A DNA stretch of 10,054 nt, from assembly GCA_018894445.1 (NCBI GenBank), contig JAHIPJ010000129.1, positions 1 to 10,054 of the forward strand. The letters run 5' to 3'. This DNA comes from Actinomycetota bacterium (lineage in GTDB: Bacteria; Actinomycetota; Humimicrobiia; Humimicrobiales; Humimicrobiaceae). Within the stretch, counting starts at the first letter, position 1, and every line of letters starts with the position of its first letter. Below the pieces are notes generated by a model. That model searched no databases and was not told the origin of the DNA. It saw only the letters and a list, made by a program, of their open reading frames with translations. Below are positions 709 to 4,457 of this stretch, in pieces. The position numbers were made by a program, and so were the translations under genes.

Positions 709-898
709 CAATATCGATGAAAAATAGCAGACGACGGCTGTTTATATGATTTTCAAATTATTTATTTGTATGTACCGTGTTTTTTTGATTTTAATAAATG
801 AAAACATTAATTAATCCAAATTGTATAAGAAAGGAGTTATGGTCTGGAGGTATTAATTTTTTTTTAGTAAATAATATAAAATTTTGAATGGAGCAATT

Positions 899-2728
899 AT
901 GATAAGCAAAGATAAATTGGAGAAATTATCAAAACTCATCAGGTATCTAATATTAATTTCGACCACTAAAGCAGGGTCAGGGCATCCATCCTCTTCACTG
1001 TCAGCAGTTGAGTTGATGTCTACATTATTTTTTGGAGGTTTTTTTAAATTCAAAATTAATGATATTGAATATATAAATAATGACCGTCTGATTTTTTCTA
1101 AAGGTCATGCTTCTCCATTAATGTATTCATTATGGGCTGCAGCTGGAGCTGTAAGTGAAGAAGAACTACTGACGCTAAGAAAATTTGAAAGCAGGCTTGA
1201 GGGTCATCCTACTCCTGATTTCCCATACGCTGAAGCTGCAACAGGCTCATTGGGCCAGGGCCTCTCTATTGGTCTGGGAATGGCCTTAAATGCTAAATAC
1301 ATAGATAAGCTGCCTTATTACACATATGTACTTCTTGGGGATAGTGAAATGACTGAAGGTTCGCAGTGGGAGGCTATACAGATTGCAGCTTATTATAAGC
1401 TGGATAATCTTGTAGGAATTATAGATGTTAACAGGCTAGGTCAGAGAGGAGAAACAATATATGGATGGGATATTAAAGCCTATGAGAAAAGGATATCTTC
1501 CTTTGGGTGGGAAACCATTACAGTTGACGGCCATAATATTGAAGAGATTGCTGATGCCTATAAAAATGTATTAAGTGTAAGGGGTAGGCCAACAATGATA
1601 ATTGCAAAAACGATAAAGGGCAAAGGAGTAAGCTTGCTGGAAGATAAAGATGGCTGGCACGGAAAAGCAATTTCTGAGGAGCAGCTGGATACAGCTCTTA
1701 GGGAATTAGGAAATGTTGATAAAAACATGAGGGGAGAAATTTTAAATCCAGAAGAGGTTAACATACCTGAAGAAGGAATAGAAGAATATGATAAGATTCC
1801 TATGGAGAGTGGTAAAATAGCTACCAGGAAAGCATATGGTAATACTCTGGTTAACATATTTTCAAAATATCCTCAAATAGTTGTCCTTGATGCTGAAGTT
1901 AGTAACTCAACATTTTCAGAGATCTTTAAAAAGCGATTTCCACAAAGATTTTTTGAAATGTATATTGCTGAACAGAACATGGTGGGTACAGCGCTTGGGC
2001 TGTCTATCAGGGGAAAAATTCCTTTCATTTCTTCTTTTGCAGCGTTTCTAACCAGAGCCTTTGACCAGATTAGAATGAGTCAGTACTCAAAATCGAATAT
2101 AAAGTTTGTGGGTTCGCATTCGGGTGTATCAATTGGAGAAGATGGAGCTTCTCAAATGGGACTTGAGGATATTGCTATGTTCAGAACTTTACTTGAGTGT
2201 GTTGTATTGTATCCATCAGACGGCATATCTACTGAAAAGCTGGTAGAGAAAGCTGCCAAACATTTTGGAAATGTGTATATCAGAACTACCAGAATGGATA
2301 CACCAATTATCTATAGCAATGAGGATGATTTTATAATTGGGGGAAGTAAAGTAGTAAAGGAAAGTAATAATGATGTGGTAACTATTTGCGCAGCTGGAGT
2401 AACATTGCATGAAGCATTAAAAGCTTATGAGAAATTAAAAAAGGAAAATATACTGGTAAGAGTAATTGATGTTTATAGTATAAAGCCCATAGATAAAGAT
2501 TCTATCAGAAAAGCTCAAAAAGAAACTAAAGCCATATTAACTGTTGAAGATCATTATGCCGAGGGAGGTATAGGGGAAGCAGTAAAAAGTGCTGCTTCGG
2601 AAAAAAGTCCGGTATATATCCTTGCAGTAAGAAAAATGCCCAGAAGTGGAAAACCTTATGAATTATTAAACTATGAAGAAATATCATATGAAGCCATTAT
2701 AAAAAAGGTTAAAGAAATAATAAGATGA
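899..2728 (+). CDS. tkt: Transketolase, single-chain
   Basis: This 609-residue protein moves two-carbon ketol units between sugar phosphates in the non-oxidative pentose phosphate pathway, using thiamine diphosphate and Mg2+. It supplies ribose 5-phosphate and erythrose 4-phosphate. The N-terminal TPP domain has GSGHP at 26-30, KGHAS around 70, TGSLGQG at 115-121 and the metal/TPP motif GDSEMTEG from 147 with Asn178. The pyrimidine-binding domain has the catalytic Glu358 in YIAEQNMVG, then the SIGEDGASQM segment. A C-terminal transketolase domain follows. GEDGxSQM and the length (about 610, against about 660 in E. coli) resemble the shorter, vertebrate-like group. N- and C-halves are on one chain, unlike the split archaeal type. 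The ATG at 899 is chosen over the TTG at 884 because GGAG at 890-893 lies five bases upstream of it. There is no close operon partner: 190 bases separate it from the CDF gene. Confidence 0.95.
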   Translation: MISKDKLEKLSKLIRYLILISTTKAGSGHPSSSLSAVELMSTLFFGGFFKFKINDIEYINNDRLIFSKGHASPLMYSLWAAAGAVSEEELLTLRKFESRLEGHPTPDFPYAEAATGSLGQGLSIGLGMALNAKYIDKLPYYTYVLLGDSEMTEGSQWEAIQIAAYYKLDNLVGIIDVNRLGQRGETIYGWDIKAYEKRISSFGWETITVDGHNIEEIADAYKNVLSVRGRPTMIIAKTIKGKGVSLLEDKDGWHGKAISEEQLDTALRELGNVDKNMRGEILNPEEVNIPEEGIEEYDKIPMESGKIATRKAYGNTLVNIFSKYPQIVVLDAEVSNSTFSEIFKKRFPQRFFEMYIAEQNMVGTALGLSIRGKIPFISSFAAFLTRAFDQIRMSQYSKSNIKFVGSHSGVSIGEDGASQMGLEDIAMFRTLLECVVLYPSDGISTEKLVEKAAKHFGNVYIRTTRMDTPIIYSNEDDFIIGGSKVVKESNNDVVTICAAGVTLHEALKAYEKLKKENILVRVIDVYSIKPIDKDSIRKAQKETKAILTVEDHYAEGGIGEAVKSAASEKSPVYILAVRKMPRSGKPYELLNYEEISYEAIIKKVKEIIR

Positions 2729-2755: not shown

Positions 2756-2778
2756 ATTGATTGAAAATTTTAATGCAT

Positions 2779-2840
2779 AAAAAAACCCCGAGTTATCTTT
2801 TGCCATAGCTAGCGCTTTAGGCTACTAAAAATCTCGGGGT
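2779..2840 (-). terminator. Rho-independent terminator of the minus-strand RNA
   Basis: On the minus strand ACCCCGAG (2840-2833) and CTCGGGGT (2792-2785) form an 8-bp GC-rich stem followed by a run of seven T residues (2785-2779, the first of them also the last stem base). The 40-base interior can extend the hairpin: UUUU with AAAA and GUAGC with GCUAU, leaving an 11-base loop. It is therefore longer and more irregular than an ordinary terminator and may be a second structural domain of the RNA. The T-run is on the minus-strand 3' side, which fixes the direction. Confidence 0.8.
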
Positions 2841-2909
2841 GTACCTTAGAACTTTTCTCAGGGACTTTTTAGATTATTAACCTCTTATCTATTCTCTTTC
2901 GAAAGTGAA

Positions 2910-3014
2910 CTACCTTTGGGCTAAAGACCCAAGGGCTTCCTGCTTCACAGCTTCATCTAACGACGACAGCTCCACAGGCTTTAGACGATAGTCCCTACCG
3001 CCTTTAATAGCCAT
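2910..3014 (-). pseudogene. tnpB: tnpB remnant: last 33 or so codons of an IS605-family RNA-guided nuclease gene
   Basis: The minus-strand frame ending in TAG at 2912-2910 encodes a 34-residue open frame containing KPVELSSLDEAVKQEA and ending LGSLAQR. This looks like the disordered tail of TnpB proteins, where a '(V/M)KQEA' stretch just before the right end is common. The stop codon overlaps the terminal TAGTTCAC, also typical. An in-frame TGA lies two codons upstream of the first ATG (3014), and the left-end hairpin follows directly, so the catalytic RuvC and zinc-finger parts have been deleted. In intact elements this stretch doubles as template for the omega-RNA scaffold, which may be why it is kept. 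It is not a functional nuclease. Confidence 0.7.
2913..2935 (-). repeat. Right-end subterminal palindrome of the IS605-type remnant
   Basis: Stem CCTTTGGG (2913-2920) and CCCAAGGG (2928-2935), 8 bp including one G-U pair on the RNA, with loop CTAAAGA on the plus strand. It overlaps the end of the tnpB frame and corresponds to the terminal hairpin of an omega-RNA scaffold. Confidence 0.75.
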
Positions 3015-3018
3015 TCAT

Positions 3019-3041
3019 CTCAAGGGCTAAAGACCCTTGAG
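3019..3041 (-). repeat. Left-end subterminal palindrome of the IS605-type remnant
   Basis: Perfect 8-bp stem CTCAAGGG (3019-3026) and CCCTTGAG (3034-3041) with the same loop, CTAAAGA, as the right-end hairpin. Matching loops in two different stems suggest that both were bound by the same TnpA transposase. Confidence 0.75.
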
Positions 3042-3108
3042 TTTTCTGGCTACTATTCTATAAATTTCAGTTATTTCTAAAAGTTGCCTCCTGTTCTAAG
3101 ATGATAAA

Positions 3109-3137
3109 AAGATACCAAAATTAAAAAATGTTGTCAA
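3109..3137 (-). promoter_or_regulatory. Minus-strand promoter of the small RNA
   Basis: On the minus strand TTGACA (3137-3132, exact consensus) is followed after 17 bases by TATCTT (3114-3109, four of six consensus bases). The start would fall near 3102, the first base of the RNA's closing helix. A weaker plus-strand pair, TTGTCA (3131-3136) and TATAGA (3154-3159), overlaps the same -35. Confidence 0.62.
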
Positions 3138-3335: not shown

Positions 3336-4457
3336 ATGAAAAATATTAAAAAAATAACTGTAATAGGATTGGGACTTATAGGTGGATCATTAGCTTTATC
3401 TTTAAAGAATACCGGTGAAGATTTTATAATCACTGGCTATGATATTGAAGGTGAAGCAATGAATATAGCCAAATACAGGAATATAATTGATGTTGTTGCT
3501 ATAGATTATAAAGAAGCAGTTACTGATGCTGATTTGATAATAATAGCAACACCATTAAGTAAAATAATCGAGGTCGTAGAACATATTAAGGGTTACCTTA
3601 AAAAAGGAGCGATTATTACAGATGTTGGCAGCGCTAAAGAGAAGATAGTTAAAAGAGTAAGTGAAATATTACCTGAAGGAGTATTTTTTATAGGCGGCCA
3701 TCCAATGGCTGGCTCGGAAAATGAAGGTGTGCTCAGCGCCACTCCAGAATTATTTAGGAATACATTTTATATTCTAACTCCTACAGATACTACTATAACT
3801 GAACCTCTGGTTACATTACATTCTTTATTTACAAAAATTGGCGCAAAAGTGATTTCTATAAATCCTAAAGAACATGATGAAAATGTAGCGTTAATAAGTC
3901 ACTTGCCACATATCCTTTCAACCAATCTGGTTGATATGATTGATGATAAACAAAAGAAGATGAAAAATTTATTTAAACTATGTGCTGGTGGTTTTAGGGA
4001 TATGACCAGAATAGCTGCTGCAAATATAAAAATGTGGCTTGACATAAGCTTAGAAAATAAAGATGAGCTAATTAAATCAATAGATGACTATATAAAGTAT
4101 CTGATAAAGTTTAAAAATAACTTGAAAAAAGAAAATTCAGAATCAATAAAAAAACATTACATAAAAGCCCAGAAGGCAAGAATTAATTTACCAAAATATA
4201 TTGAGAAAGATATTTCCAAATTATATGAACTTAGAGTTGCAATACCTGATAAAGCAGGAGTTTTAAGTGAAATTACACTGGCTATAAGTTCTCACGGAAT
4301 AAATATTGAAGATATATCTATTTTTCATTCAACAGAATTCAGTGATGGGGGAATCCTTAAAGTACTGATTCAAGGTGAAGATGCTAGTAAAATTACAAAA
4401 GAAGCTATTGAAAAAGCAGGATACGAAGTAAGTGTAAAAAAGGTATTAAGTGAATAA
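3336..4457 (+). CDS. tyrA: Prephenate dehydrogenase with C-terminal ACT domain
   Basis: Oxidises and decarboxylates prephenate to 4-hydroxyphenylpyruvate with NAD(P)+, the committed step to tyrosine, in the cytoplasm. The protein has 373 residues. A Rossmann fold opens with GLGLIGGS at 11-18. The substrate part has GGHPMAGSE at 120-128 and SHLPH with the conserved catalytic-region His189. An all-helical dimerisation segment with FRDMTRIAAAN follows at about 220-230. From about 297 an ACT domain begins (LRVAIPDKAGVLSEI, then HGINIEDISI). In this family an ACT domain usually mediates feedback inhibition by an aromatic amino acid, so tyrosine control is inferred. The ATG at 3336 has GGAG at 3327-3330 five bases upstream and is preferred over the TTG at 3315, which precedes that site. 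There is no chorismate mutase fusion. It is the first gene of the cluster, two bases from aroA. Confidence 0.94.
   Translation: MKNIKKITVIGLGLIGGSLALSLKNTGEDFIITGYDIEGEAMNIAKYRNIIDVVAIDYKEAVTDADLIIIATPLSKIIEVVEHIKGYLKKGAIITDVGSAKEKIVKRVSEILPEGVFFIGGHPMAGSENEGVLSATPELFRNTFYILTPTDTTITEPLVTLHSLFTKIGAKVISINPKEHDENVALISHLPHILSTNLVDMIDDKQKKMKNLFKLCAGGFRDMTRIAAANIKMWLDISLENKDELIKSIDDYIKYLIKFKNNLKKENSESIKKHYIKAQKARINLPKYIEKDISKLYELRVAIPDKAGVLSEITLAISSHGINIEDISIFHSTEFSDGGILKVLIQGEDASKITKEAIEKAGYEVSVKKVLSE

Follow-up and report, generated by a model that had tools for sequence, protein, structure and literature searches.

The window analysed here, 10,054 nt long, is contig C96 of a metagenome-assembled genome (G000; 1.24 Mb, 92% complete). 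It carries on its minus strand a gene for a predicted structured RNA between a transketolase gene, which is convergent with it, and tyrA, which is divergent from it (Table 1). Pfam matches confirmed both neighbors and, with them, the placement given in a first-pass annotation of this DNA, which had described an unrecognized, free-standing structured RNA equipped with a promoter and a terminator of its own. Among named genomes, the closest matches of tyrA (95-97% identity) come from metagenome-assembled genomes; three of the four bear the label Actinobacteria/Actinomycetota or Candidatus Hydromicrobium americanum, whose genus is assigned by NCBI to Candidatus Humimicrobiia. The description in the annotation is supported by the Rfam, homologue, covariation, and promoter-conservation tests reported below. 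Our analyses extend it in three respects: the family is multi-copy, ilvE follows some of the copies on the same strand, and a motif resembling a receptor for the GAAA loop is found in the second hairpin. A second, uninterrupted paralogue is present in G000 at C210, beside ilvE, and the tyrA-side orthologues in sister species are also uninterrupted, without the insert found in the window. With the intact paralogue as the blastn query, the window matches at 3112-3057 (86%) and 2881-2776 (81%), and the covariance model of the family aligns to 2777-2952 (110.7 bits, E 3e-23), with the 5' side of the model filled with bases of the insert.

Table 1. Features of the RNA locus and its neighbors (positions in the window; 5' and 3' strands of helices are those of the RNA)
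Feature	Position	Strand	Basis and remarks
Transketolase gene	884..2728	+	PF00456, PF02779, PF02780; convergent neighbor of the RNA
RNA gene	2777..3102	-	Transcript predicted from ~3102 to the U tract; ~172 nt when uninterrupted
Seven-U tract, intrinsic terminator	2779..2785	-	Sequence; overlaps the end of the P4 stem
P4 terminator hairpin, 3' strand	2784..2792	-	Pairing counts, 82 copies
UAUGG, 3' side of receptor-like motif	2803..2807	-	Position-wise counts, 82 copies
CCUAAAG, 5' side of 11-nt GAAA-receptor-like motif, P4/P5 hairpin	2815..2821	-	Position-wise counts, 82 copies
P4 terminator hairpin, 5' strand	2833..2841	-	98.2% of cells paired (82 copies)
P1 closing helix, 3' strand	2844..2852	-	Pairing counts, 82 copies
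Internal-loop strand CCUGAGAAAAG, type I core, 3' side, conserved	2853..2863	-	40-copy alignment; counts in 82
P2 helix, 3' strand	2864..2873	-	Pairing counts, 82 copies
C(GAAA)G tetraloop capping P3b	2896..2901	-	GAAA in 81/82 intact copies
155-nt non-autonomous IS200/IS605 element	2905..3059	-	In the P3b stem, directly 3' of TTTAT (3064-3060)
P2 helix, 5' strand	3076..3084	-	Pairs with 2864-2873; 8/8 pairs double-changed, 86% of cells paired
Internal-loop strand AGGAGGCAAC, type I core, 5' side, conserved	3083..3092	-	40-copy alignment; counts in 82
P1 closing helix, 5' strand	3093..3101	-	Pairs with 2844-2852; 9/9 pairs double-changed, 82 copies
-10 box TATCTT, preceded by TG (extended -10)	3109..3114	-	Promoter scan; TG in 67/73 copies
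-35 box TTGACA	3132..3137	-	Promoter scan; exact in 55/73 homologous copies
tyrA (prephenate dehydrogenase)	3336..4457	+	PF02153, PF20463; divergent neighbor

A promoter scan recovered the minus-strand -35 box, 17-nt spacer, and -10 box at 3137-3109 that the annotation had pointed out, with a TG ahead of the -10 box. The call is weak by itself, as the scan returned 7 such sites over 661 bases where 3.6 were expected, and its weight comes from conservation in the homologues. In 73 of the first 76 copies (the other 3 have no upstream sequence), TTGACA is exact in 55, the TG is present in 67, and the spacer is 17 nt long in 63, while the -10 box ends 5 to 7 nt ahead of the start of the model in 69. 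The mean best promoter score in these copies is 10.2 of 12, versus 8.1 in shuffles. Conserved placement of this kind is the strongest support for a predicted transcript short of RNA data. At the other end, the GC-rich hairpin with seven U residues is plain in both the sequence and the fold, where a CCCCGAG/CUCGGGG stem runs into the U tract (2785-2779). A terminator scan did not list this hairpin because its loop exceeds the length that the scan allows; the sole site found lies on the plus strand, inside the insert. Comparison among copies shows the locus to be a discrete predicted transcription unit of about 172 nt with a sigma-70-type promoter.

The boundaries of the insert at 2905-3059 were confirmed by a 96% match at C148, which comprises the element plus TTTAT, and by the empty site in G002, G003, and G006. 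The insert keeps a left-end hairpin and a right end and lacks TnpA and TnpB. Both of its ends match an element at C165 of the same genome that encodes TnpA (PF01797) and TnpB (PF01385, PF07282), and each of the three copies (window, C148, and C165) has TTTAT at its left end. Ends shared with an autonomous element of the same genome, a common target sequence on the left, the lack of a transposase, and the lack of a target duplication are all as in IS200/IS605 miniatures. Judged by its sequence, the insert is a miniature IS200/IS605 derivative that landed in P3b just 5' of the GAAA cap. It is like IS200/IS605 elements and their transposase-less miniatures in keeping both ends and in lying 3' of TTTAT, and it is unlike the full elements in having neither gene; it is an ordinary passenger, outside the RNA family. 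A miniature IS605-type element thus splits one copy of the RNA while an intact paralogue remains, and since the tyrA-side copy is split inside P3b, function probably rests on the intact ilvE-side copy. The same 155-nt TnpB-less element also occurs at C148 (L011, 1015-1175), between nusG and a ribosomal protein gene (identified by eye). Right ends of this type correspond to the tail of the TnpB genes at C165 and C196, which is where the scaffold of a guide RNA would be expected, and TnpB acting in trans might therefore use the miniature copies.

The homologue search (blastn with the natural uninterrupted C210 paralogue as the query) found the RNA in 7/7 genomes of the genus and 32/35 genomes of the family. 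A covariance model, R1, built from a 40-copy alignment (A1), found it in 34/35 family genomes, including 15/15 high-quality ones, with 1 to 10 matches in each, some of them broken. In the class, R1 matched 35/40 genomes, the extra one being G035, a member of another family with a short 127-nt relative (43 bits); four genomes of a third Humimicrobiia family gave no match. Among 396 Actinomycetota, searched with R1 under stricter filters, nothing was found beyond the family and class matches and a borderline match in G066, which belongs to another class. We judged the latter to be due to chance (30.7 bits, E 8e-4; E 0.009 with a wider model); with the wider model, 2/19 genomes of the G066 order had anything at E <= 1. 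The G066 sequence (C117, 5243-5310; L233) is a terminator-like hairpin similar to P4, ahead of an aroF-like gene and tyrA (both named by eye). Two antisense matches (L060, 194-327, and L219, 75-261) were dropped from the 105 model matches, and the row for the window was reset to 2777-3102. Phage and plasmid records gave only chance-level matches (E ~0.5; 14 and 1 records), and two exact, strict sequence patterns hit 0 viral contigs, on which grounds a phage or plasmid origin was rejected. At the level of these searches within Actinomycetota, it is established that the predicted RNA family is kept by one Humimicrobiia family.

The RNA in the window and two uninterrupted homologues fold better than their shuffles. 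The fold of 3102-2779 has an energy of -114 kcal/mol and a z score of -6.0 (0/100 shuffles as good), values to which the insert contributes; the uninterrupted ilvE-side copy of G000 has a z score of -3.2 (2/200 shuffles as good), and the uninterrupted tyrA orthologue of G002 has one of -5.2 (0/200). The closing helix proposed at the predicted start near 3102 corresponds to P1, which has 9 bp, all of them changed on both sides among the homologues. The proposed long capped hairpin is likewise present, its 5' arm consisting of P1, an internal-loop core, P2, P3, and P3b, with the GAAA cap at 2900-2897, and so is the second irregular hairpin. The latter is built from P5 and from P4, the stem of the terminator, in which an internal loop is conserved. 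The core in P1, formed by AGGAGGCAAC with CCUGAGAAAAG, includes a short AGG:CCU pairing, and P3 contains an AGUA/GAAA loop that we presume to be akin to the sarcin-ricin motif.

Massive compensatory change in the homologues, counted with a pair-counting tool, supports this structure. In A1, a MAFFT alignment with a hand-made structure that holds 40 of 47 copies (7 partial ones were left out), 34/45 pairs are changed on both sides and 91.7% of cells are paired. A larger alignment, A3, was fitted to the covariance model with E set at 1e-14; the window was left out of it, as were sources whose copies are truncated or degenerate, and its counts therefore describe intact copies only. Across these 82 intact copies, 40/45 pairs are changed on both sides and 92.1% of cells are paired, with 482 double-changed cells versus 121 in shuffles, and 0/500 shuffles reached as high a value on any measure. 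Shifting the pair partners by 1 to 3 columns lowers the pairing from 92% to 28 to 52%. Chance hairpins are ruled out by this covariation, and the pairing of the predicted secondary structure is strongly supported. Column conservation in the g1 tyrA-side orthologues is 0.773 for unpaired and 0.775 for paired columns; since the unpaired columns are no better kept than the paired ones, this comparison lends no support to a loop-based function.

The position-wise counts in the P5 motif, CCUAA(G/A)...UAUGG, follow the pattern of a tetraloop receptor. C2, U3, A4, and A8 are present in 82/82 intact copies, C1 in 79/82, A5 in 77/82, G10 in 81/82, and G11 in 79/82, while positions 6, 7, and 9 vary. GAAA, CCUA, and xAxGG occur together in 77/82 intact copies, and exact CCUAAG/UAUGG occurs in 17/82. 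According to a published description of the 11-nt receptor complex, position 9 (U9) is flipped out and makes no contact with the tetraloop (PMC11381326), so the pattern of variation fits a working receptor. The motif is thus of the same CCUAAG/UAUGG type as the published 11-nt GAAA tetraloop receptor, with a fixed core and a variable position 9, but it differs in that the putative receptor sits inside an intrinsic terminator hairpin. From these counts we infer that the GAAA cap docks in the receptor-like motif of P5, either within or between molecules. For docking within one molecule, the 5' hairpin would need to fold back on itself; formation of a dimer is just as possible. Against docking stand truncated copies, L223 among them, that retain GAAA without the receptor. 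The G035 relative is also without the receptor, and its P3b loop is UUCGU in place of GAAA. We rejected a clean joint loss of GAAA and receptor in this relative, as a GAAA loop caps its P5.

We compared the RNA with known classes by searching Rfam 15 at the gathering score. No family was matched at that level at the two G000 copies, at the G035 relative, or at 20/20 further loci, and this holds for the known riboswitches and T-boxes among others. Lax searches with three copies gave best E values of 0.52, 0.39, and 1.1, far under the cut-offs; the best match of the window near the RNA (E 0.52) scores 17 bits against a cut-off of 81. The papers listed under the taxon names include none on RNA, judged by title, and the passages of PMC11109978 consulted do not mention ilvE, tyrA, or a tetraloop; on this basis we know of no published description of the family. 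A family-level lineage of uncultured Actinomycetota keeps an RNA family that goes undetected by Rfam 15 models in the copies tested. A known class whose habit recalls this family is 6S RNA, which has a similar length, a rod-like 5' hairpin, and its own promoter. The 6S family (RF00013) gave no match at the RNA; 6S RNA was found at other places in 26/35 family genomes, though not in G000. The RNA also differs from 6S RNA in being often multi-copy and in having a terminator hairpin with a receptor-like motif. The raiA or ModT RNA (RF03072) is a free-standing structured RNA of Bacillota and Actinomycetota that is transcribed from a sigma-A promoter and has eight paired regions and two pseudoknots, as reported in PMC11706538. 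It shares with our family a free-standing position, a sigma-type promoter, and a structured fold. Our family is modeled instead as two hairpins with a different conserved core, and the two-hairpin model accounts for the covariation counted. None of the 40 class genomes had a raiA match over the cut-off, and one 13-bit match was seen elsewhere; no control genome passed either, so the sensitivity of this search is unproven. The shared habit of a free-standing RNA of about 170 to 200 nt with a sigma-70-type promoter speaks for a divergent member of 6S, raiA/ModT, or another Rfam family, but given the 6S RNAs located at other places, the raiA result, and the absence of gathering-level matches, we regard such an origin as highly improbable.

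The putative GAAA contact raises the question of catalysis, since docking of a tetraloop in a receptor is typical for introns and ribozymes. If the RNA were a ribozyme or otherwise catalytic and were locked in this way, both the contact and the near-invariant unpaired residues found in the P1 and P4 loops across the 82 copies would be accounted for. However, no known catalytic core was matched in Rfam at the gathering level and the copies inspected are intergenic, and catalysis appears very unlikely to us.

The genomic positions of the copies bear on whether the RNA acts in cis or in trans. Two sites are old. At the ilvE site, the RNA is upstream of and co-directional with the gene in 21 genomes of 7 genera (21/21). 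At the tyrA site, which 15 genomes possess, likewise from 7 genera, it is divergent from tyrA; both sites are occupied in 8 genomes. Past the tyrA-side copies, every next gene in view is convergent (14/14, or 17/17 with three copies beside DUF255 included), and the identity of this gene varies (tkt, GGDEF-HD, PrsW-like, or DUF255). In G010 and G011, the RNA persists next to DUF255 although the 0.6 kb and about 2.9 kb of upstream sequence in view contain no tyrA. In G027, it lies behind mnmA with no ilvE within 1.5 kb downstream; in G026 the contig ends 205 nt after it, too soon for that locus to inform on ilvE. At sites outside the ilvE, tyrA/DUF255, and RRM-gene groups, the next gene is co-directional in 23 cases and opposite in 21. 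These orientation counts are based on 92 copies, the best among 103; for 7 of the 92, no downstream gene is in view. Gene nicknames were assigned by eye and checked with Pfam for only part of the genes, with the result that a "NifU" cluster became mnmA (two checked), an "HK" became GGDEF-HD (one), and a "HigB" became Gp49-like (one). Convergent, changing, or absent neighbors and the 23/21 orientation argue for a free-standing RNA.

A cis-acting leader, with a ligand-sensing 5' hairpin and a terminator that gates read-through primarily into ilvE, would explain why 21 same-strand copies lie just upstream of that gene. Gaps to ilvE of 28 (G024), 58, and 60 nt leave little room for a promoter, and read-through is plausible in G024, where ilvE begins only 28 nt after the RNA. 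The copies before RRM-domain genes are also at a near-constant spacing of 119 to 122 nt (4/4). A riboswitch or attenuator is expected to be consistently co-directional with related genes. The family as a whole is not, but the ilvE copies (21/21) and RRM-gene copies (3/3) are. The 17/17 convergent genes and the even orientation elsewhere argue against a leader, as do the persistence of the RNA in G027 without ilvE nearby and the terminator helix, which is among the best-kept parts of the RNA (98% of cells paired). No competing antiterminator was noticed by eye. In 4 genomes from 2 genera, a TTGCAA-17-TA(C/A)AAT motif precedes ilvE by 24 to 36 nt, but single promoter scores there are mostly no better than those of shuffles (p < 0.05 in 2/20). 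We consider a leader function unlikely, yet the most probable of the alternatives weighed here. One comparison counts against a free-standing RNA as well: among four g1 tyrA-side orthologues, 90% of columns are invariant in the RNA, 86% in the stretch from the promoter to tyrA, and 50% downstream, so the RNA is only slightly better kept than the flanking stretch. Genes of one PAS-GGDEF-HD cluster were seen near tyrA-side copies in several genomes, at L177 (gene at 1507-2928), L178, L037, and L028, with Pfam confirmation for L177 only. These neighbors deserve attention, as ModT RNA reportedly changes c-di-GMP (PMC11706538).

Conservation of the family could also reflect mobility if the RNA belonged to a small selfish repeat that spreads. 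Up to 10 matches occur in one genome, broken copies exist, and in many pairs of copies from one genus the shared sequence stops 0 to 10 nt after the RNA, with a variable reach upstream. The range of 1 to 10 matches per genome and the broken copies near toxin-antitoxin-like genes are what a mobile repeat would show. The ilvE and tyrA positions are nonetheless kept over 7 genera each, and a tree of the copies clusters by site, with 5 changes for tyrA versus 14.0 in shuffles and 7 for ilvE versus 18.7; 0/500 shuffles were as low, a result that near-copies favor. As neither site forms one clade, exchange between copies or tree error is likely. No transposase family recurs, by eye, among the 45 neighbor clusters shown, and the phage, plasmid, and viral searches described above also speak against spread by mobility. 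One apparent 5' truncation is an internal deletion in which the promoter is kept, and two more look alike by eye; the idea that the dispersed g1 copies integrated at the 3' end is weakened by the former. Taken together, these data make a mobile repeat a poor explanation, somewhat less probable than a leader. The dispersed g1 copies L226 (G004:C159), L228, L024, L029, and L023 adjoin toxin-antitoxin-like genes, one of which is Gp49-like by Pfam while the others were identified by eye.

Our results are instead consistent with a model in which the locus is a copy of an apparently undescribed RNA family that acts in trans, probably as a protein-binding scaffold locked by GAAA docking, and we give this reading a probability of about 50%. 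In this model, docking of the GAAA loop in P5 would fix the 5' hairpin and the terminator hairpin against each other, and the scaffold would expose a surface, formed by the conserved P1 and P4 internal loops, to which a protein would most likely bind. The RNA would act in trans, like 6S or raiA/ModT RNA, rather than on a neighboring gene. What is conserved belongs to helices, internal loops, or the tetraloop and receptor, so that no obvious open seed is left for antisense pairing. A trans function through a bound protein is suggested by this lack of a seed together with the promoter, the terminator, the heavy structure, and the indifference of the RNA to its neighbors. Because it offers about 100 copies, is compact, covaries clearly, and contains a putative tertiary contact that can be tested, the family is a good target for structure determination and the search for partners.

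The family also contains subtypes, which we sorted by eye. The four RRM-gene copies, from three genera (PF00076 was checked for two), and the relatives in G014 to G016 and G024 have a second P1 core, and the copies in G012 and G013 have a third. Most subtype copies retain the GAAA hairpin and P4/P5, suggesting a constant chassis with exchangeable recognition parts. We tentatively propose, at odds well below those of the scaffold itself, that the RNA is a trans-acting machine in which a two-hairpin scaffold, its GAAA loop docked in its own terminator, carries exchangeable P1 cores, the type I core being AGGAGGCAAC/CCUGAGAAAAG. If so, its standing would be comparable to that of raiA or OLE RNA, and one lineage would run several RNPs side by side on a shared chassis, perhaps in the form of dimers linked by the tetraloop. 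The RRM protein is a possible partner of the RNA. Its genes were located at 2722-2976 of L212 and 3299-3562 of L222, and in L173 and L208. A further variant, L215 (4889-4975), is an 87-nt mini form that lacks P2-P3 and keeps a promoter, P1 as a short hairpin, and the terminator hairpin of P4/P5; it could be either a degenerate copy or a functional short form.
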